Shown here in pieces: positions 54,346-64,000 of a stretch of DNA of 64,000 bases. The position numbers and the translations under genes are program-made. The stretch is taken from the NCBI GenBank assembly GCA_024761205.1, contig JAMASS010000004.1, positions 248,001-312,000 of the forward strand, read 5' to 3'. The notes under the pieces were generated by a model. It saw only the letters and a list, made by a program, of their open reading frames with translations. It did not search any database and was not told where the DNA came from. Source of the stretch: Limisphaerales bacterium. GTDB lineage: Bacteria; Verrucomicrobiota; Verrucomicrobiia; Limisphaerales; AAA164-E04. The number at the start of each line of letters is the position of its first letter. Position 1 is the stretch's first letter.

Positions 54346-54382
54346 CGAAGTGATTCACCCCTCAATCGGGTGAATCACTTCG
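54346..54382. repeat. Perfect 15-bp inverted repeat (hairpin)
   Basis: The left arm CGAAGTGATTCACCC (54346-54360) and right arm GGGTGAATCACTTCG (54368-54382) are exact complements around a 7-base loop. No T-run follows on either strand, so it is not a typical intrinsic terminator. It lies about 50 bases before dispersed repeat copy C and 200 bases before the phosphatase gene. It may be an element end, an operator or a stem in an mRNA leader. Confidence 0.7.
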
Positions 54383-54434
54383 GACAGGCAATTGCGTGCC
54401 CCTCAAGCCGACGGCCCTCTGTGCGGGCCGATAG

Positions 54435-54500
54435 TTCGCTGCGTTGCTCAGTCGCCCAAAAGCACCCGATCATACCATGGTTTCGAGTTTGCCTATCTCA
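54435..54500 (+). repeat. Dispersed repeat, copy C (partial)
   Basis: Blocks TTCGCTGCGTTGCTC, AAAAGCACCCGATCATACC and ATGGTTTCGAGTTT match the first part of copies A and B. The last part (GTCTCGCCCCACC block) is missing. It lies about 80 bases upstream of the PPP-phosphatase start and is spanned by a spurious upstream extension of that open frame. Confidence 0.6.
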
Positions 54501-54582
54501 GGCAGACAAACGAAATTTACCTTTCACCAGCCCTCGTTATCTGCGTAACCTCTCGCTATTCAAACACAGGAACTATCATCCC

Positions 54583-56112
54583 ATGATGCTGAAAGCAGCG
54601 ACTTACTCCCTGACCTTGCTCCTCGTAACAGCATCGTGCGGACAGGCTACCGACCAATCATCGTTACCAGAGGACTCAGATAACGACCTTCAATTCGCTG
54701 TCCCTGCTTTCGCAGCAGATCCGTCCCTTTCTCAAAGGGACACCAGCACATGGACCTATGAAACCTTTGATGACTGGAAGCAAGCCTGCGACCTGCTCCC
54801 GGCCAATAGAACGCTCAACCGAAGATTCCCGCCTCCAAACCTCCTTCCATTTAAGACCTCACAGGAGTTTGATCAAGCGCTTGAAGCAGCGTTTGATCAT
54901 TTCAAGAACGGCAAGCTAACGGAGGCTGACCTCTGGTTGAACGGCGGACCAGAGCCCTCGACTTTCTTTGACACCTCGCGCGTTTATTTTGAGAGGAACG
55001 GACTTCCCTTTCGTCTCTTCGCTCAAAGATTGGAGGTGCCACCGAATTCGAAATTGTTCGTTCACGGAGATTTTCACGGCGATATTCACTCTTTCATTGC
55101 TTATCTCTCGAAACTGAATGAGCAGAAGGTCTTAGATGGCTTCAAATTAATTGTCCCCGATACTTCCTTCCTTTTTTTGGGCGACTACACAGACCGTGGT
55201 GTCTATGGCGTTGAGGTGATCTACACACTTCTGCGACTTCTACTGGCCAATCCGGAAAATGTTCATCTGGCCCGTGGTAATCATGAAGACATCACCCTCA
55301 CGGCAAAATACGGATTCACCACCGAACTCGCGTTTAAATTCGGGCGGAACTACGACATTCGTAAACCGATGCGGCTTTACGATTTTCTGCCCGTGGTCCT
55401 GTATCTTGGCTGTGGGGACAACTATGTCCAATGCAACCATGGCGGCATGGAACCCGGCTACAACCCTGCTCAGCTGTTAGAGGAAGCCAATCCGATTGGA
55501 TTTCAGCTGCTCGGTTCCCTCCAACAGAAAAGTTACTTTAACAAACACCCTGACTTTCTCGAGTCCCTGGATCCTCTGACCCGTCGGCAGTTTGGTTCCC
55601 AACTCCGAGATTTCACACCGGCTGACCCGGTGACGCCCGTCGTACTGGGATTTATGTGGAACGACTTTTCTATCCTGCGAAGTGACCCGCCTCTTGCGTA
55701 TGATCCAAACCGCGCCTGGGTGTATGGAAAGTCAGCCACTGAACACATTCTCACCCACTCCAGCACTGATTCGCACAAACTCCGCGCGGTCATCCGCGCG
55801 CATCAGCATTCCAGCCTCCTCAATCCCATGATGCGCCGCCTAGTCGCTTGCAATGGCGTCCACCGCCACTGGCAGGAAGGAGACAACCCTGCCTTGTTGA
55901 ACGCAGACCCTGAGATACTACGAGCATCCTTGGAAACCGACCCAATCCGTCCGCTCGTCGACGGCAGTGTTTTCACCTTGAACGTCGCTCCGGACAGCGC
56001 TTACGGAATCGGCTGCAATTACAGTTTTGACACGTACGCCATCGTCACTACGGCTGAGGAATTCTCTGACTGGACTCTCGAGGTCCACAATGTCAACGCG
56101 CCCAAGTGGTAA
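54583..56112 (+). CDS. Exported PPP-family (eukaryote-type) metallophosphatase
   Basis: This 509-residue protein starts at MMLKAATYSLTLLLVTASC, a signal peptide with Cys19 as possible lipidation site (weak lipobox). The frame extends upstream over the dispersed repeat, but that part is not protein-like. The four PPP signatures are complete: VHGDFHGDIHSF (GDxHG), FLGDYTDRGVYG (GDxxDRG), LARGNHEDITL (GNHE) and VIRAHQHSS as the late His, with CNHGGMEPGY between. These bind two metals and are those of Ser/Thr phosphatases such as PP1/PP2A/PP2B and the bacterial relatives. Location outside the cytoplasm suggests action on envelope or external phospho-substrates. No kinase is nearby. The gene is an intact island in eroded surroundings. 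Confidence 0.85.
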   Translation: MMLKAATYSLTLLLVTASCGQATDQSSLPEDSDNDLQFAVPAFAADPSLSQRDTSTWTYETFDDWKQACDLLPANRTLNRRFPPPNLLPFKTSQEFDQALEAAFDHFKNGKLTEADLWLNGGPEPSTFFDTSRVYFERNGLPFRLFAQRLEVPPNSKLFVHGDFHGDIHSFIAYLSKLNEQKVLDGFKLIVPDTSFLFLGDYTDRGVYGVEVIYTLLRLLLANPENVHLARGNHEDITLTAKYGFTTELAFKFGRNYDIRKPMRLYDFLPVVLYLGCGDNYVQCNHGGMEPGYNPAQLLEEANPIGFQLLGSLQQKSYFNKHPDFLESLDPLTRRQFGSQLRDFTPADPVTPVVLGFMWNDFSILRSDPPLAYDPNRAWVYGKSATEHILTHSSTDSHKLRAVIRAHQHSSLLNPMMRRLVACNGVHRHWQEGDNPALLNADPEILRASLETDPIRPLVDGSVFTLNVAPDSAYGIGCNYSFDTYAIVTTAEEFSDWTLEVHNVNAPKW

Positions 56113-56197: not shown

Positions 56198-57244
56198 TCA
56201 CAACCCGCAGCCGCAATCATCTGATCCGTCGGCACCGTCCTGATTCGGAGTTGTTTTTGACGACGCCATCAACGCCTCAACCTCCGCATACACTTCCGAC
56301 AACTCGATCAGCATTTCCTCCAGCTGAGCGTAATACGCTGCTTCCTCGAAAGATTCCTTCCGATCTCGCAGGCTCAAAACTTTAAGCTCAAGGGCATCCC
56401 GTCGGTCACGGGCGGCTTTCGGCATGTGTTGCTCAAACTCACTCCGAATGAGATGAAATTGATGGGCCCGCCGGCCATCGGGTTCCGCGCCCTCTTTCGA
56501 CTTCTTGATCACGCGAACGCCCCGATACCAATCGACGCTGGTTCCTCTCTGATCCCCGGTGTCATCGATAAGCGCGTGCTCCGAGGCCAGCCTTCCATCC
56601 AAGCTATAATATTCCTCCGTATCGCGGGCCCCTTTTAAAAAGGCCTCCAGCAAGGAAACTTGACCATCCTTATCGAGATCAGCCTCCAAATTACCGATGG
56701 CTTGGGAAACATAGTCTCCAAAACGGGAGTAGTTGAGCTCATAACCGCTTTTTGTCGCCGAAAGGATCACGCGATTCGGAGCTGAGAGCGCGTGAATAAA
56801 AGGAGCACTGGCGGAGAATCCATTCACCACGGCCACCGGGCGTTGACAGGGTTTTAGCCATTCAGCCAGTTCTTCAGCTGAGACATCCGGTCCGACCAGA
56901 TTGAACTTTCCAATCTCCCCATCAAAAGTCCCATGCCCATTGAGCACCAGCCACAGCTGCCCCTCGGTCTTGTTGACCTCGGTTTCCAAAAGCGCATGCA
57001 ACACCTCCTTATCGGTTTGCCCGTCTTGATCGCCACCGCCAATCGCATACACCAAGGCATTCGAACGCTCACCCGCCTCCCGCCAATACTCAGACCAACC
57101 CGCAAACACCGTCTCGTACTCGGCAGCACCGGCAATGCCCGTCACGACGATCAACGTCACCCGATCATCAGCCGGCATTGCCCCGGCACCATCAAGCCTG
57201 ATCGTGGCAAGAAAAAGAACGACAATGAAACCAACCCTCTTCAT
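56198..57244 (-). CDS. Exported caspase-fold protein lacking the catalytic Cys, with EF-hand and coiled coil
   Basis: This is a 348-residue protein. The start ATG overlaps the stop of the upstream gene (ATGA), so the pair is translationally coupled. A signal peptide comes first (VGFIVVLFLATIRLDGAGA). A caspase/legumain-like domain follows, with the catalytic-type His in LWLVLNGHGTFDGEIGKFNL (His104) and the following strand PVAVVNGFSASAPFIHALSA. There the position expected for Cys is occupied by non-Cys residues, then RVILSATKSGYELNYSRFGD. Residues 189-200 form a canonical EF-hand loop (DLDKDGQVSLLE). A long charged helix (residues about 280-330) and a Cys/Gly tail (DDCGCGL) end it. It is probably a pseudo-protease or a divergent enzyme. 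Confidence 0.75.
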   Translation of the reverse strand: MKRVGFIVVLFLATIRLDGAGAMPADDRVTLIVVTGIAGAAEYETVFAGWSEYWREAGERSNALVYAIGGGDQDGQTDKEVLHALLETEVNKTEGQLWLVLNGHGTFDGEIGKFNLVGPDVSAEELAEWLKPCQRPVAVVNGFSASAPFIHALSAPNRVILSATKSGYELNYSRFGDYVSQAIGNLEADLDKDGQVSLLEAFLKGARDTEEYYSLDGRLASEHALIDDTGDQRGTSVDWYRGVRVIKKSKEGAEPDGRRAHQFHLIRSEFEQHMPKAARDRRDALELKVLSLRDRKESFEEAAYYAQLEEMLIELSEVYAEVEALMASSKTTPNQDGADGSDDCGCGL

Positions 57245-59703
57245 GCGAACCCTCGCGTTCGACGAATCCCCCACTCCAGAATAAAACAGCCGATGGCAAG
57301 AGCAAACATCCAGGCCGTGTGCCACATTGGCGACGTCCATTCCTCCATCACCGGAACCTGACGAATCGGCAGGCCCTTGGTGAACTTGCCCAAATCATTG
57401 GCCGCCACCACCTGCCCGCCAGTCTGCCGGGCAATCCGCTCCATCAACTCGCGATCGGGATTGAGTGATCGAAATTCCTCCGCCGCCGGATCAGAACTCC
57501 AGCCGGCTTCCGCCCGTCCCACCGTCAAACCGTTCATATCAGCGACCGTCGCCTCCACCGCATAACCGCCCGTCTGTCGGGGAACAAAAACCGCTTCGTA
57601 CAAGCCGGGTTCGGTAGCCGAGGGTTCTGCAACCAACTGGACGACGTTATTACTGACAGACGCAACCTCACGAATGGATGAATCCACGCCTTCTCGTGGA
57701 TTTTCCAGAGTCAAGGATTTCACACCCAAATTAACCGTAGCATTTTCCATCGGCCAAAACTTCTTGTCCTTAACCCGAACCCCAATAGTCACAAATGGAT
57801 TGGCGTCCGCCGGCACCCGATCAACCGTCATCTCGATCTGCTCCGGTGCGTCCGCAATCAGCCAGCGAATTAATTGGCGCCACGCCTTCCCCTGCTCGCC
57901 CGTCGCCGCCTGATCGTGCATCTGCCAACGCCACAAATCACCGATCATCATCGCCGCCGTCTTTCCCTTCCCGTACCGCTGAACCGCCAATCCCGGATAT
58001 TCTTCACCCGTAGACTCTTCTTTAGCGACGATGAGAACCGTTGCACCCGGTTTCGGAGCGCCCACCTTACTCAACACCTTAAAGGACGTCATCGACTCCA
58101 GCCGTTCCTGCTCTTGGTTTTCGGTGGGGCGCAATCGGATCCAAGGCTCCAGCATCCCCTCACGAGTCAACTCAATCCTCACTGTCTCTACCGGCTTGTC
58201 CGTGAGCGTCCGATTGAGATAGACCGGCAACATCGCGCCGACTGGAGTTCCCTCGTAACCGCCGTCAATCAACGAGTCATATCCCCCCAAAGCCAAAAAA
58301 CCACCGCCACGTTCAGAGACGTACTTCTGCATCAACGACATCTGGTCCATCGTGAAAAAACCAGCCTCCAAATCATCGACGATGATCGCTGCATAACCGT
58401 ACAGGTCTTCCGCCTTCTTGGGAAAACCGCCCACCAACTCGCTTTCGTCCCGGATATTGAGCCGTGTCAAGACCGGCTGATCACGTTGCTCAGTCAAATC
58501 ATCCTGCTTATCAAATCCGCGATACAGAGGATTACTCGTTTCCCCGCGCCGCCCCTTGAACTCAAAGCGTGGGGATCGTTTGGCCAGACGAATCAACCCG
58601 ACCAACTGAACCTGATCATCCTCATCGAGCGCTCGATTCAAAAACTTATACTCCCAGTGGGGTCGGCCAGCGACGTACAGAATCCGGTAAGGACCACCGC
58701 TACGGTTCACAACCAATACACGTTGGTTATTGGCCAAAGTCGCTTCGCTCAAGGCCGCTGCTCCTAGCGTTGCCGGTTCCTCTGAATTTACCAAAGCCAC
58801 TTGAAGCTGATAAAAGGAAACGCCGATTTTCTCCGGACGAAACTGAAACCGGAAATTTAGCGTGGTCCGTTCGCCACTCACCTCTTGGACCTGCTCCTCA
58901 AGATCAAAACCCCCTTGCCTCTCCTTATCCGCCACGGAATCCGACTCGTCCCAATCATTCCATGTCGGCACCAGTTTCGCCGACACCCTCCCTCCCTTGA
59001 ATCCGTTGACGCCGATTTCCGCTGTAATAGTGACCGGGGCATCTTCAAACGCAGTTTCTGTCATCGCCACATTCTGGATCGAAATATCACGCACACGATC
59101 GTCGGTGCCAGAAATCACGGGATAGACGGGCGGTAATCCAGTCAAATCAAGCTCCCCATCCACAAGATCCGTGGCATTTCCATCACTAAATAACAAGATA
59201 CCCGCCAGTGGCTGTCCCTCAAAGCGCTGGGCTAAGGACCTCAATGCCGAACCCAGGCCCGAGGCCCGTCCATCAAAACGCAGATCACCGAAACTCTTGA
59301 TCCCATGCAAGCGGGTGTCAAAGATATAACGCCGCACCTGAAAGTGGGTTTCCAGCTGAACTCGCCACGAAGAGAGTTCATCCACGAGCAGATGAAGCAG
59401 CTGCTCGCCACGGCTCTCAAGCGCCCCTTGATCGCGAATCTGCATCCCCTGACTGTTGTCCGCCAAGATCGCCATGTAATTGGCGCCGGGCTTGGCGCGC
59501 TTTTCAGTCCACAACGGCTCCAGCAAACAGAGCAATAACAAACCAAATCCGAGGACCTTAAGGCAGAAGCAAATCTGTTTAACTCCACGCGAACCATTGA
59601 GGCGCCAATAGGAGAAGAAGAGCAACGCAGCCACAAGCCCCCACCAAACCAAAGCGGGCACCAACCGATCCTGACCGGAAAATACAATATTACCTAATGC
59701 CAT
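57241..59703 (-). CDS. VWA-like membrane protein with periplasmic domain (BatA-operon type)
   Basis: This is an 820-residue protein (836 from the ATG at 59751; the ATG at 59703 is preferred because the membrane helices then follow directly). Two N-terminal helices come first (LVWWGLVAALLFFSYWRL and LKVLGFGLLLLCLLEPLW). A VWA-like domain follows (YMAILADNSQGMQIRDQG and PLAGILLFSDGNATDLVDG), with Asp in place of part of the DxSxS site (DNSQG). A glutamine-amidotransferase-like segment reads YAAIIVDDLEAGFFTMDQM, then ERGGGFLALGGYDSLIDGGY. A last helix sits near the C-terminus (WHTAWMFALAIGCFILEWGI). Such proteins usually sit in MoxR/DUF58/BatA operons of Planctomycetota and Verrucomicrobiota. 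Here only the last two genes remain. Confidence 0.8.
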   Translation of the reverse strand: MALGNIVFSGQDRLVPALVWWGLVAALLFFSYWRLNGSRGVKQICFCLKVLGFGLLLLCLLEPLWTEKRAKPGANYMAILADNSQGMQIRDQGALESRGEQLLHLLVDELSSWRVQLETHFQVRRYIFDTRLHGIKSFGDLRFDGRASGLGSALRSLAQRFEGQPLAGILLFSDGNATDLVDGELDLTGLPPVYPVISGTDDRVRDISIQNVAMTETAFEDAPVTITAEIGVNGFKGGRVSAKLVPTWNDWDESDSVADKERQGGFDLEEQVQEVSGERTTLNFRFQFRPEKIGVSFYQLQVALVNSEEPATLGAAALSEATLANNQRVLVVNRSGGPYRILYVAGRPHWEYKFLNRALDEDDQVQLVGLIRLAKRSPRFEFKGRRGETSNPLYRGFDKQDDLTEQRDQPVLTRLNIRDESELVGGFPKKAEDLYGYAAIIVDDLEAGFFTMDQMSLMQKYVSERGGGFLALGGYDSLIDGGYEGTPVGAMLPVYLNRTLTDKPVETVRIELTREGMLEPWIRLRPTENQEQERLESMTSFKVLSKVGAPKPGATVLIVAKEESTGEEYPGLAVQRYGKGKTAAMMIGDLWRWQMHDQAATGEQGKAWRQLIRWLIADAPEQIEMTVDRVPADANPFVTIGVRVKDKKFWPMENATVNLGVKSLTLENPREGVDSSIREVASVSNNVVQLVAEPSATEPGLYEAVFVPRQTGGYAVEATVADMNGLTVGRAEAGWSSDPAAEEFRSLNPDRELMERIARQTGGQVVAANDLGKFTKGLPIRQVPVMEEWTSPMWHTAWMFALAIGCFILEWGIRRTRGFA

Positions 59704-59839
59704 ACGCTGGAGTCGGTCGTCTCTTGCCAGAATAGCGTGAAGCAATTCCATGAAAAAGCGAATGAAATTTCACTCGCCCGCTATAAAAGATGGGACAGAA
59801 TTCTACGATGGATCGTTACAGCCATTTCCCACGCCGGCG

Positions 59840-60255
59840 GATCAAACTAGCCTCGACGATCCACCCTTAGAAGCCAAACCGCCGCGGTCAATGCCAAGGA
59901 ACCGGGTTTCAAAACAGCCGCAAGAAATCTCCAAACAGCGGGCCCAAGCCTGGGCCGTCCCACAGCGAAAACACAGAACAAAGCTACCTGGCTTCATCGC
60001 GCGGTCGCAGTCCAAAACCCAAGCACAAGCAACCATCCACACAGCAATTCAAACCAAGGCCGGCCGATGGCAACGCTTCGGGCCAACCATCTTGGTGGGA
60101 GGCAATTAATGAGCGTTGACTGCACCCAGAAATTCTACCGGATTGGCGATCTTTGGAACCTCGGCCCAATAACAGAAGAGCAGAGCGCCAAAGAACCGCC
60201 AACCGATCTCCTTCCAAGCGAGCCTGCAGCTTGCCCTTAGTTTCTAGCGAGGACA
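59840..60255 (-). pseudogene. MauE/DoxX-family membrane protein, eroded
   Basis: Minus-strand blocks in alternating frames read DRLAVLWRSALLLLG, PKIANPVEFLGAVNA, LPPTKMVG, then LNCCVDGCLCLGFGLRPRD and TAQAWARCLEISCGCF. The order matches the MauE/DoxX family (A-x-x-KI-x-DP-x-F helix, LLP, LLCG helix, AW-x-RGLEISCGCFG). At least three frame changes are present. It directly follows the rhodanese pseudogene, as in the frequent rhodanese-MauE gene pair. Confidence 0.6.
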
Positions 60256-60640
60256 TCACACTTTCTTCCAAAATGCCTCATCTTACTGCCATCGCTGAAG
60301 ATAGTCCTTATACCCTGCCCTCGTATAGTCACAGGCTTGCGTGGCCAAAATTCATCTCGCAGTTTCACCGGGAGACACTTGGGCTGTTCACAATCTGCGT
60401 CACCGCAATACAGCACCAGAGTGTGACCGGCTGCGTATTGTTGGGCAAAAACATGAAAGGCCTCAGTCGTCAGGAAAGAAAACGGCAAACAAACGGCACA
60501 GGGAAGATGCCCCGCGTCATAACTCCATTGCGCGCGCGCCATCGACCAGCAGGGCGTTCTTCTGTCTTACCAGCTGCTGCGCCTACTCGTCCCGCAAGAC
60601 AATGGGAAAACCCTCCTTAGAGACGGGTCCCGTGCAGGTG
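60237..60640 (-). pseudogene. Rhodanese-like domain protein, eroded
   Basis: One frame reads ARAQWSYDAGHLPCAVCLPF, then FHVFAQQYAAGHTLVLYCGD and ADCEQPKCLPVKLRDEFWPR. This is a rhodanese domain, with the active-site Cys in LVLYCGDADCE. The N-terminal part is in other frames with stops, and the C-terminal glycine-rich end has decayed. It sits upstream of the MauE/DoxX remnant on the same strand, suggesting a former two-gene redox operon. Confidence 0.65.
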
Positions 60641-60799
60641 AATTCTAGCGTTGTTTCTGGAGCGCCCGTGCCTCACCTTTGGATCCCGAGGTAGGCGAAA
60701 CCGACTTCTTGCCCATCTTCCGAGCTTAGGAACAGATCGACTCCCAATGGGCTTGCGGGTTGTACAAATCACCGCCAGTCCTACGCTCAATCTAAACAA

Positions 60800-62180
60800 A
60801 CAAAGAAACTCTCCCAGGACGCTTCGCATTGAAAAATCAGACCTTCCGGTTGGTTTCGGATGTTTCGCTGGGTTGTTTTCTTGACCACGACCGCGTTCGA
60901 GCACCTTCCTAGACGGCCCTTCGAGTGACAGAAGATGGCAACGTGGTGATAAGGATTGGAATCCCACACAAGGGGAAAGCGGCGAAGGAGCGCCGCTTTC
61001 CCCTTCGCATCGGCATCTGTAGTCGAGTTCCCCTCGCTGCCGTCCTTGCAGATCGAAGCGATCTCAACACCGCTCAGACTACGATTCCAGATCACCACAT
61101 CATCAATGCTGCCGGCCAACGGGAATTCGGTTTCGGTCGGTGGCGCCAAAAATCTCACCAGCCCAATAAAGGGCTAAAGTTGCCCCATTCGCGGCAATGT
61201 GATGCCACGAATTCCGTTCAAAATCCGGAGTGAGAGCACACTGACCACTCCCGCTGAGTTCCAACGCCCGTCCAATTTGACCGTCGCCGAATCCAGCGCC
61301 ACCTTCCAAGGAAGCAGCCGGGCCGCTAGCGGAGTCGTCGCCATTGCCGTCAAGCTTGAAGTGAGCGACCAACCCATCGGTGATATCTGGAGATTCGAGG
61401 ATGTTCACGACTGCCGATTGGCTAAGAACACGACCAGCCGCATTCGTCACCGCTGCGGCATGGACACCGGCATCAGACACCGAAAGGGCGCCAACCACAT
61501 ACGGCGAACCCGTGGCCCCCCAATTCGGCTGACCATCCTTAAACCACTGGATACTGGTATCTTGACCTTCGATGCCCAAGGTCAGCTCGATGCCGCTGAC
61601 TTCAACACCGTTGGTTGAAATTGGATTCTGAGTGATCCCCGGCACAGAGGGTGCCTCTGTCGGGTTCACGACCAGCTGAACGATATAATACCCGGTCTCT
61701 GAATGTCTCCGTTAGGCACATAGTATTGCAGGAAGATTTCACCACCAGGAGTCAGCGTCAATCCACTGAAGATCATCATGCTACCCACACTGCGCGTTTT
61801 CACGATCTCAGCACCAGCACAAACCCGGGACGAAGGATTGTACTCGTCGGATTTCTGAGGGCGGATGAATCATCGTTGGGTTCCGTTACCATCCTCCACT
61901 TCAACGTTCATCTCGAAGAATTCCAACGGCACCCGAACCAAATACACGATTAAGGTGTGGGTTTCGGAAGGAACGCCGAAGAAAGCCGCTTCAGGAAACT
62001 CATCATTCTCAGGATCCTTGGTGCTGGTGCGAACCATTACTGTTCAGCATTCGCTGAGTGCCGTCATCCTCACCCATGCCACCATTGACGTTGTTCCAAT
62101 AAGCCTGCGGATGGAATCCAGCAACAATATCCATTGTCTTCAAACAACTGGCCCAGCCTCATTGCGGAAAACCGTCACCA
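60800..62180 (-). pseudogene. LamG/Ig-like surface protein, eroded
   Basis: At 61103-61669 one frame gives an Ig-like segment (GQDTSIQWFKDGQPNW, VSDAGVHAAAVTNAAGRVLS), then a LamG start (GLVAHFKLDGNGDDSASGPA and GRALELSGSGQCA). A second frame from 61158 gives the LamG end (FPLAGSIDDVVIWNRSLSGV). Upstream, frames near 61700-62150 read VAGFHPQAYWNNVNGGMGED, GVPSETHTLIVYLVRVPLEF and LTPGGEIFLQYYVPNGDIQ, a beta-rich exported region. Several stops lie between. Intact proteins of this kind are large exported adhesin- or glycan-binding-like proteins of Verrucomicrobiota. Confidence 0.6.
60970..61005. repeat. Perfect 15-bp GC-rich inverted repeat
   Basis: The arms AAGGGGAAAGCGGCG (60970-60984) and CGCCGCTTTCCCCTT (60991-61005) are exact complements with a 6-base loop. 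Read on the minus strand it lies right after the LamG end (DADAKGKAAL region). It could be the terminator of that former gene read in frame by erosion, although only two T residues follow the stem within the arm. Confidence 0.75.
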
Positions 62181-62205
62181 TTCAGACCGCTCCAGACCGC
62201 CCCGT

Positions 62206-63838
62206 TCACAATGCCCAACTCCGCCAAGGCAACACTACTGAGCTGATCACCATCCATGTCCCATTGCGCCACTCCAGCACCTGTGAGGAGCCCCTTGCGG
62301 ATAACCGCCCGGCGGTTGCCCCGCCTGCGACAAACAAAGCCCGTCTTCCGTTCCCTCGCAGATCACCCAAAGCCAGCCCCCCACCCAATCGAATGCCCTG
62401 AGAAAACTGGAATCGGCCAACTAACCCCAGCGCGGGCCACACCTGATCCCCGGCACCAACGGCCCTCACCCAGCACTCGTATCCCGTGGCGGTGGTCAGC
62501 ACATATCGCTCGCCTTCCGGACTTTGCCAGGCAAGACTCCCAGCCGTGTCAATTGCCATCCCCGGAATGCCACCTAGTCATCGACTCCCAGCCCCCTCAC
62601 CATCCTCAAAGAAGATAACGCCTCTCTGACCTTGAGCCCCACCGGTTGCCAAAACTCTTCATTCTGACCGCCGTAAAAGTCACACCAAGCCAGCCCGGTG
62701 CCACCATGCCCCAACCAAAACAGCAGCAGCAGTTGGCGAAAAAAATCTTCGGCTGGCAGATTGACGTGCCGGTGGCTCAACCTATTCGTCACGTCCGTGA
62801 ACAACGGTCCGGCCGGATCCGAACCGCTCTTCGCTTCCACCTGCTCGACCAACGCCACCCGACGAATCGTGTAAATCCGACTCGACTGACGCTCCCGTTC
62901 CACCATCTCACCACCAAGGCAAAAGCCTCCCGCAAACGCTGCGGATCTTTGATGTGGCCCCATGAACGTTACCAACGCTCGATTTTCAGGCCGGCATCAA
63001 GATCCTGTACGTCCCAAGCATAGCTCGCAGCCACCAGCAAATCGTCATCCCCGTCAAGCTCCACATACAAAAATCCGGCAGCAGATCACTGCCCCACGTC
63101 ACAGAAACTCGCCGTAACCCCCAGTCAATCAGCGTTTTCATCAATGAATCACCGGTCTCGTTCAAAAACTCCCCGGAGACTCAACCGACTTCGGTGAAGA
63201 CTCCAAGCCATCATTAAGGATAGAGATGATCAGGTTCGCCATACTCATTCACCCGGCCACCCACAAAGAACAGGCGATTCTTGAGACGATCAGAGACTAC
63301 CACTTTACCATTTCGACGATCAAGATTCACCCGCCCGCTCTCCCAGATATCATCGGGTCAATAATTGGAAACATACAGATCAGGATAGCCAGCACCCCTC
63401 ACATCGGCCATTACCGCCCCGCAGCAAAAAATCCTGTCACAGTCCACACCCGCCGCCGCTGCCACATTTTCGAAACACCAGTTCCCTAAACTTCGGCAAA
63501 GGGCGTTCGGCAAGTTCAAACCACAGACATATGGGTCAATCCGGTCCGTCAGAATCAAAATTACCCAACACGACACCCGAACCATTAAGCAGCACTCAAT
63601 TGCGGGCGGCATCGATTTCGGTGAGACAATTCACGAAATCAAGGCCTGTCTCATTCGGGCCCCTTCTCAAAACCCACCTCCACTGAGAGTGTAAAGGAGA
63701 GCCATTCAGAGGAGCAGTCGTTGGCTGAGCGCCGGCGCCAGAAGCCAAAAGAGCCGAACATCCAAGCACCAAGACACGCGGCGGCAACTCGGCAAGGCCC
63801 GCTGACAAAGCGAACACTCTCGACTTTCTCTCCATCAC
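62206..63838 (-). pseudogene. FG-GAP/VCBS-repeat protein (CRTAC1/UnbV-like), eroded
   Basis: A start with a signal-like N-terminus is at about 63838 (RVLVLGCSALLASGAGAQ). ETGLDFVNCLTEIDAARN follows, then in shifted frames DPYVCGLNLPNALCRSLGNW and CFENVAAAAGVDCDRIFCCG, then MADVRGAGYPDLYVSNY. These are typical FG-GAP repeats of CRTAC1-like proteins (NxLYRNLGxxxFxDVTxxAGV and DxDxDGxPDLYVSNY). A further block at about 62975-62800 reads FTDVTNRLSHRHVNLPAED. The last frame (62206-62559) has GIRLGGGLALGDLRGNGRRA and LFVAGGATAGR. Many frame changes are present and the calcium-binding Asp runs are partly lost. Confidence 0.7.
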
Positions 63839-63899
63839 AGCAATCGCGCTTCTTGCAGAACCTACCCCCCGTCAGCCCAAGGTCATCATCTCGTTTCCT

Positions 63900-63942
63900 G
63901 GACTGCGACCGCCTCGGGTAAGGCAGCAGGCTGCCGCAGTCC
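63900..63942. repeat. Short inverted repeat with GGACTGCG arms
   Basis: GGACTGCG (63900-63907) and CGCAGTCC (63935-63942) flank a 27-base spacer containing GGCAGCAGGCTGC. The compact palindromic layout resembles REP-like elements. No further copy with both arms was seen in the window, so the call rests on structure only. Confidence 0.4.
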
Positions 63943-64000
63943 AAAGGGTCCGCACTCGGGCACTAAATCTGTCCTACAAAGTCGCGTTTTCATCTGGCAA

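Follow-up and report, generated by a model that had tools for sequence, protein, structure and literature searches.

We analyzed a 64,000-nucleotide window of a Limisphaerales bacterium (assembly GCA_024761205.1, contig JAMASS010000004.1, positions 248,001 to 312,000; G000:C34:248001-312000 in our numbering, where G, C, and L denote genomes, contigs, and loci), and all positions below are window coordinates. Two adjacent genes on its minus strand, which we call P1 and P2, encode a predicted caspase-fold protein that lacks the catalytic cysteine and a membrane protein with a VWA domain. The P1 frame is intact over 348 codons. P2 is also intact, with 836 codons from its first ATG or 820 from the ATG at 59703, which lies near the start of its homologues. 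An earlier prediction made from the DNA alone (here, the original prediction) had described the start codon of P1 as overlapping the stop codon of the VWA protein gene, and the sequence reads gcATGAag at this junction. The P1 motifs that it listed (LNGHGTFDG, VVNGFSASAPF, and an EF-hand loop) are all present as well (Table 1). P1 is predicted to be exported to the periplasm on the basis of its Sec-like N terminus.

Table 1. Features of the P1 and P2 genes and proteins in the window
Feature	Residues	Position	Strand	Basis
P1, caspase-fold putative pseudo-protease, 348 amino acids, predicted periplasmic, Sec-type N terminus		56198..57244	-	Intact frame, AlphaFold2, homologues
P1 hydrophobic N-terminal segment, probable Sec signal peptide, no lipobox Cys	~1-23	57176..57244	-	Sequence; low pLDDT at residues 10-19
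P1 caspase/legumain-fold domain (predicted)	25-272	56429..57172	-	VIA-align, Foldseek, hhalign
P1 LNGHGTFDG, His104 equivalent to the catalytic His	GHG at 103-105	56918..56944	-	Alignment, hhalign to C14 GHG
P1 VVNGFSASAPF, nucleophile loop, no Cys	139-149	56798..56830	-	Sequence, 64-member alignment
P1 DLDKDGQVSLLE, canonical 12-residue EF loop	189-200	56645..56680	-	Sequence, alignment
P1 second acidic loop DDTGDQ (DDNGDG in most homologues), possible second metal site	227-232	56549..56566	-	Alignment
P1 C-terminal helical hairpin, proposed P2-docking element	276-330	56255..56419	-	DSSP of AlphaFold2 model
P2, 820-amino-acid membrane protein, BatA/BatB-type VWA with inserted Ig-like and GATase1-like domains		57241..59703	-	AlphaFold2 (pLDDT 80), VIA-align, Pfam GATase1_like
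P2 N-terminal transmembrane helices (two)	27-49 and 55-76 (numbered from ATG at 59751)	59524..59673	-	Hydropathy, AlphaFold2 helices
P2 MIDAS-like motif DNSQG		59446..59460	-	Sequence, alignment
P2 GATase1-like domain inserted in VWA fold	353-636	57844..58695	-	Alignment, VIA-align, Pfam
P2 C-terminal transmembrane helix	813-833	57253..57315	-	AlphaFold2 helix, sequence

P1 is predicted to have a caspase/legumain fold

The AlphaFold2 model of P1, built from 33 aligned sequences, had a predicted local distance difference test (pLDDT) score of 89.4 and a predicted template modeling score of 0.86. VIA-align ranked legumains first among structures similar to the model (prolegumain 4nol; Z, 18.8; root mean square deviation, 2.4; 188 residues aligned), followed by plant metacaspases (6w8r; Z, 17.9), GPI8 (16.2), and caspase-7 (15.7), and the top Foldseek matches were MALT1 (E of 3e-7) and caspases. 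When we compared P1 by hhalign with 21 Cys-bearing C14 domains of the same phylum, the probabilities were 92.7 to 94.8 (E of 4e-7), and the GHG of P1 was placed on the GHG of the C14 caspases. P1 has both features by which clan CD is recognized, namely, the alpha/beta caspase fold and, where the third core strand ends, the His of an HG motif. Based on the model, we are confident in assigning P1 to the caspase/legumain fold (clan CD). The original prediction had proposed this fold and suggested checking it by structure prediction and against the C13/C14 families, and the structure prediction and the C14 comparison agree with it.

Family profiles did not reveal this relationship. For the window P1, Pfam Peptidase_C13 and Peptidase_C14 gave no match above the gathering score, and just 3 of 48 P1 members had any match to Pfam C13 (best E of 0.007). 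No named family for P1 was found in Pfam and NCBIfam searches, and PDB sequence searches with protein and profile queries returned nothing useful.

The nucleophile loop of the P1 family has no conserved cysteine

We aligned 64 members of the P1 family, and the residue counts that follow refer to this alignment. His104 is invariant, as are Gly39, Gly103, Asn115, Asp120, Asp189, Asp193, Glu200, Glu222, Asp231, and Asp256. The nucleophile loop has the consensus [ND]-[T/C/G]-[A/S/F]-S-[A/S/C]-S-[A/G]-P-F. After the fourth core strand, where a Cys nucleophile was looked for, the window P1 has none at residues 142 to 146, and none is conserved among the 64 members. Position 142 is Thr in 36 members and Cys in 17, position 143 is Ala, Ser, Phe, Thr, Gly, or His and never Cys, and Ser occupies positions 144 and 146 in 56 and 63 members, respectively. 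The missing Cys that the original prediction saw in one protein is thus a trait of the family, with a register that is uncertain by one residue. We rejected the idea that the window holds a single mutated copy in a decaying gene because no Cys is conserved in this loop across the family.

The hhalign comparison gave no single register for the nucleophile column, since maximum accuracy (MAC) realignment, the Viterbi alignment, and an ungapped alignment place it at residues 142, 144, and 143, respectively. The AlphaFold2 model has a strand at residues 137 to 142, a four-residue loop, and then a helix at residues 147 to 153. We favor the ungapped register because this strand-loop-helix spacing would equate residue 143 with Cys189 of legumain. 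The alignment suggests that P1 has lost catalytic activity.

Two kinds of retained chemistry have to be weighed against such a loss. In the Viterbi register, Ser144 falls on the C14 Cys and SA/SG falls on SG, and P1 could then be an active hydrolase with a Ser144/His104 or Ser146/His104 dyad that cuts or modifies an envelope substrate presented by P2. The invariance of His104 and the high conservation of both serines fit this proposal, as does the retention of Ser146 in 5 of 6 distant relatives. However, the ungapped register and the strand/helix spacing put the nonconserved residue 143 at the place of the Cys, and clan CD is not known to include a peptidase of the Ser type; we regard a serine hydrolase as unlikely. 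Pseudo-orthocaspases that carry Ser are likewise regarded as presumably inactive (PMC6426788).

In the MAC register, position 142 falls on the C14 Cys, and the 17 members with Cys142 could be active cysteine peptidases, with the window copy coming from a branch in which this Cys was lost. This we consider very unlikely, since Thr142 occurs in 36 of 64 members, some of them with a full operon, and since His104 and the EF loop are equally conserved in the Cys142 and Thr142 members. Moreover, C14 caspases also have a small residue, in many cases another Cys, just before the Cys nucleophile (DCCHSG), a pattern that fits position 142 without catalysis.

Acidic loops of P1

The sequence DLDKDGQVSLLE fits the EF-hand pattern DxDxDGxhxxxE, in which D189, D193, and E200 are the invariant residues of the family. 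A helix (residues 198 to 215) follows this loop, the preceding helix is short, and there is one canonical loop only; the Pfam EF-hand_5 match to P1 falls below the cutoff. A DxNxDG-type loop also directly follows the core in several of the Cys-bearing C14 caspases from this phylum, where it occupies the same place as in P1 (ADANGDGSVTQKE in L102 and ADHDNDGRVSLTD in L118 are examples), and the P1 loop is therefore most simply an inherited trait. The original prediction was right about a canonical EF-hand loop, which is conserved in the family, but its statement that P1 adds this loop does not hold given the similar loop in Cys-bearing relatives. In the second acidic loop, D231 is present in all members and D228 in 62 of 64. 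These residues suggest that P1 may bind Ca2+.

P2 is a BatA/BatB-type VWA protein with inserted domains

The VWA fold of the P2 model matched Bacteroides Bat proteins in VIA-align (4jdu, Z of 16.5; 3ibs, Z of 15.6) and sits between N- and C-terminal transmembrane helices, as in the BatA/BatB type. Because Ig-like strands and a GATase1-like domain interrupt the fold, its last helices lie near residues 770 to 800. The metal ion-dependent adhesion site (MIDAS) reads DNSx[G/S] in P2 members, with D98, S100, D190, and G191 invariant and the last Ser replaced by Gly in most members and kept in some. The GATase1-like part matched 3rht (Z of 21.3), and Pfam GATase1_like was found in 23 of 24 members. 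No catalytic Cys is conserved at its nucleophile elbow, where the aligned members read RGGGFLxLGG, and the domain is probably inactive because LGG stands at the Cys turn of class I amidotransferases. These results agree with the VWA-like membrane partner of the original prediction, but P2 holds more than that name implies, namely, Ig-like domains and a GATase1-like domain without the nucleophile Cys. Foldseek matches of whole P2 to GH2 enzymes were discarded as meaningless multidomain matches.

P1 is paired with P2 and belongs to a MoxR/BatA-type cluster

With duplicates left out, P2 lies directly upstream of P1 on the same strand at 53 of the 56 P1 loci where the upstream DNA could be read. 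The exceptions are L014, L020, and L043, and L043 has a gap of 1.6 kb. Among 58 genomes of the order, orthologues of both genes occur in 33, P1 only in 2, P2 only in none, and neither in 23. An orthologous P2 is thus always accompanied by P1 (33 of 33 genomes; Fisher P of 3e-14 for co-occurrence, not corrected for phylogeny). The search for the pair in other genomes that had been suggested with the original prediction therefore finds it to be near obligate.

At many loci, genes for a large DUF4175-like membrane protein, BatA, DUF58, and MoxR lie upstream of P2. The six genes MoxR-DUF58-BatA-DUF4175-P2-P1 are contiguous in L042, L055, L058, L072, L085, and L086, where P2 and P1 close the cluster. 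In the genome of the window, the cluster is split, with an intact DUF4175-like gene at C10:54801-58412 and the BatA and DUF58 genes at C34:615610-618501 (BatA gene intact). This split is common to the whole family of that genome: in the one-contig genome G001, the DUF4175-like gene lies ~458 kb from P1, and the gene is retained in 8 of the 9 other family members and was not found in G004. The original prediction had the pair surviving without the rest of a MoxR/BatA-type operon, which does not stand, as the cluster is contiguous in other families and its DUF4175 and BatA genes are intact elsewhere in the same genome. For the same reason, and because of the family members that keep the DUF4175-like gene, we rejected loss of the operon by decay.

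Outside the core domain, the model of P1 ends in two long helices (residues 276 to 294 and 301 to 330) that form a hairpin, in which R282, E286, Y304, and E309 are conserved in the 64-member alignment. Two short 271-amino-acid P1 paralogues (L033 and L039) have GHAN in place of GHGT, lack the hairpin, and are not beside P2. We propose the hairpin as the element that docks P1 to P2 because it is absent from these two proteins, an inference from few cases.

P1 might instead work outside a P2 complex, as a free periplasmic Ca2+-dependent binder or an inhibitor of clan CD proteases, its link to P2 being one of co-expression only. Related domains do occur without P2, both in these short forms and in fusions to DUF3857 or transglutaminase (L034 to L037). 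However, P1 and P2 are paired almost without exception and closely spaced in many families, the hairpin is present where P2 adjoins, and a search of the window's own genome found no C14 or C13 peptidase as a target, all of which make such a role quite unlikely.

The pair is under purifying selection beside a decayed flank

Between the window and its congeners, the proportion of nonsynonymous differences (pN) in P1 and P2 was 0.15 to 0.26 and that of synonymous differences (pS) was 0.75 to 0.86. For P1 alone, pN was ~0.21 to 0.26, and synonymous sites were saturated (pS of 0.78 to 0.86). P1 and P2 are under purifying selection. The right flank (59752 to 64000) is decayed, since four genes that are intact in the sister genome G002 (L081:10550-19856) survive there as fragments. 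These genes, for a MauE/DoxX protein, a rhodanese, a 1,338-amino-acid LamG/Ig protein, and a 1,287-amino-acid FG-GAP/UnbV protein, are not operon members.

The decayed flank could suggest that P1 is itself a functionless relic in a decaying region. We consider this scarcely credible with P1 and P2 intact, pN far below pS, invariant motifs, and P1 present in 35 of the 58 genomes of the order. The original prediction of an intact pair under selection beside an eroded region is in line with these data.

Distribution of the P1 family and its distant relatives

Within the order, P1 is conserved at 38 to 72% identity. A wider sample of 289 genomes from across the phylum had P1 in 19, and it was also found at 33 loci in a species-level genome collection. 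The assemblies that carry it are labeled Pedosphaera, Limisphaerales, and other Verrucomicrobia, with some records of Planctomycetes/Phycisphaerae, Acidobacteria, and Gemmatimonadota, and a plasmid search gave one match, in Gemmatirosa. P1 is a well-conserved, large, Verrucomicrobiota-centered family that is unnamed in protein databases.

More distant relatives likewise lack the Cys nucleophile. In several large Verrucomicrobiota proteins (L034 to L037, L155, L156, and L159), a Cys-less caspase-fold domain is joined to DUF3857 or transglutaminase, and in L034 to L037 the caspase-fold domain comes first. L157, L158, and L160 are separate distant P1-like forms. A P2-like gene lies ~1.7 to 2.1 kb upstream in L157 and L160, possibly a second version of the pair. 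A broader and tentative proposal is that a caspase-fold family abandoned Cys chemistry and gave rise to a dedicated periplasmic MoxR/VWA subunit, with sister branches fused to DUF3857/transglutaminase and possibly with a new Ser/His chemistry.

A possible role for P1 in an envelope complex

We think it probable that P1 is a dead caspase/legumain-fold protein of the periplasm, a subunit with a structural or ligand-binding role in an envelope complex that P2 organizes, within the MoxR-DUF58-BatA-DUF4175-P2-P1 system. The BatA-type protein BB0173 sits in the inner membrane and exposes its VWA domain to the periplasm (PMC5700661), and client proteins are acted on by MoxR ATPases together with VWA partners (PMC9976466, PMC13036017). 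Given these precedents and the Sec-like N terminus of P1, a periplasmic, Ca2+-stabilized, nonproteolytic, P2-bound subunit is the simplest reading. Ca2+ in the EF loop, and perhaps also in the DDNGDG loop, would rigidify the caspase core, and the vestigial His104/Ser-rich cleft may have been retained to bind a peptide or an envelope ligand. P1 would dock through its C-terminal hairpin on P2, at the VWA/GATase1-like part in the periplasm. Depending on the state of P1 and P2, the MoxR ATPase in the cytoplasm might then act with DUF58 and BatA to remodel or sense an envelope client.

Several observations weigh against this proposal. The conserved Ser144 and Ser146 are close to an invariant His, so that some chemistry could have been retained, and Cys142, together with the uncertain register, leaves possible activity in some members. 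Two genomes (G029 and G048) have P1 without an orthologous P2. EF loops may also be purely structural, bind Mg2+, or bind nothing.

Relation to known systems

Pseudo-orthocaspases and MoxR/VWA operons are each known, and their combination appears to be undescribed; we found no paper on a caspase-fold subunit in a MoxR/VWA operon or on MoxR with DUF58 in Verrucomicrobia in the open-licence literature. Pseudo-orthocaspases make up 8.6% of bacterial orthocaspases (PMC6426788), and reduced conservation of the dyad has been reported in Planctomycetes and other groups (PMC3501461). Like P1, these C14B-like proteins have a bacterial caspase-homologous fold with a substituted dyad and are kept as a group, and some prokaryotic caspase homologues have an EF-hand motif (PMC6426788). 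Those described were found by a p20 profile, mainly in Cyanobacteria and Alphaproteobacteria, and mostly have YS, YA, FS, QC, or HA dyads (PMC6426788). In contrast, P1 retains the His and goes undetected by the Pfam C14/C13 profiles, and it is encoded, as a predicted exported protein, in a VWA operon of Verrucomicrobiota and related groups. P1 lacks the HC dyad and has a profile link to C14. Legumain/C13 and GPI8, the best structural matches, share with P1 the core fold over residues 25 to 272 (VIA-align Z of 16 to 19) and the His104 of the HG motif, but identity is ~10%, and P1 has no catalytic Cys and, in place of the legumain prodomain, carries an EF loop and a helical hairpin at the C terminus.

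The MoxR-BatA operons of Bacteroides (bat) and Borrelia (bb0170-0176) also bring together MoxR, DUF58, BatA, and membrane VWA proteins (PMC5700661). A cluster of the same kind, cmdA-D of Rhizobium leguminosarum, is cited in PMC5700661, and cmd mutants are reported to have envelope and morphology changes. A caspase-fold subunit is not reported for the operons in PMC5700661, whereas here a P2 with a GATase1-like insertion is followed by P1. NorQ/NorD and CbbQ/CbbO share the principle of a MoxR AAA+ ATPase working through a VWA protein (PMC9976466, PMC13036017, PMC4660213) but are soluble, have known clients, and are not known to have a caspase-fold component. MoxR-VWA operons are widespread and their envelope clients mostly unknown, and a conserved caspase-fold subunit that is probably exported and whose partner is defined offers a concrete handle on them. 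The P1 family also extends pseudo-caspases past the described orthocaspases, to proteins that the Pfam C13/C14 profiles miss.

On the other side of P1, a gene for a calcineurin-like phosphoesterase (54370 to 56112) is convergent to it. This neighbor is conserved beside P1 in the genus and family of the window's genome (L002, L003, L005 to L007, L010, L012, and L015).

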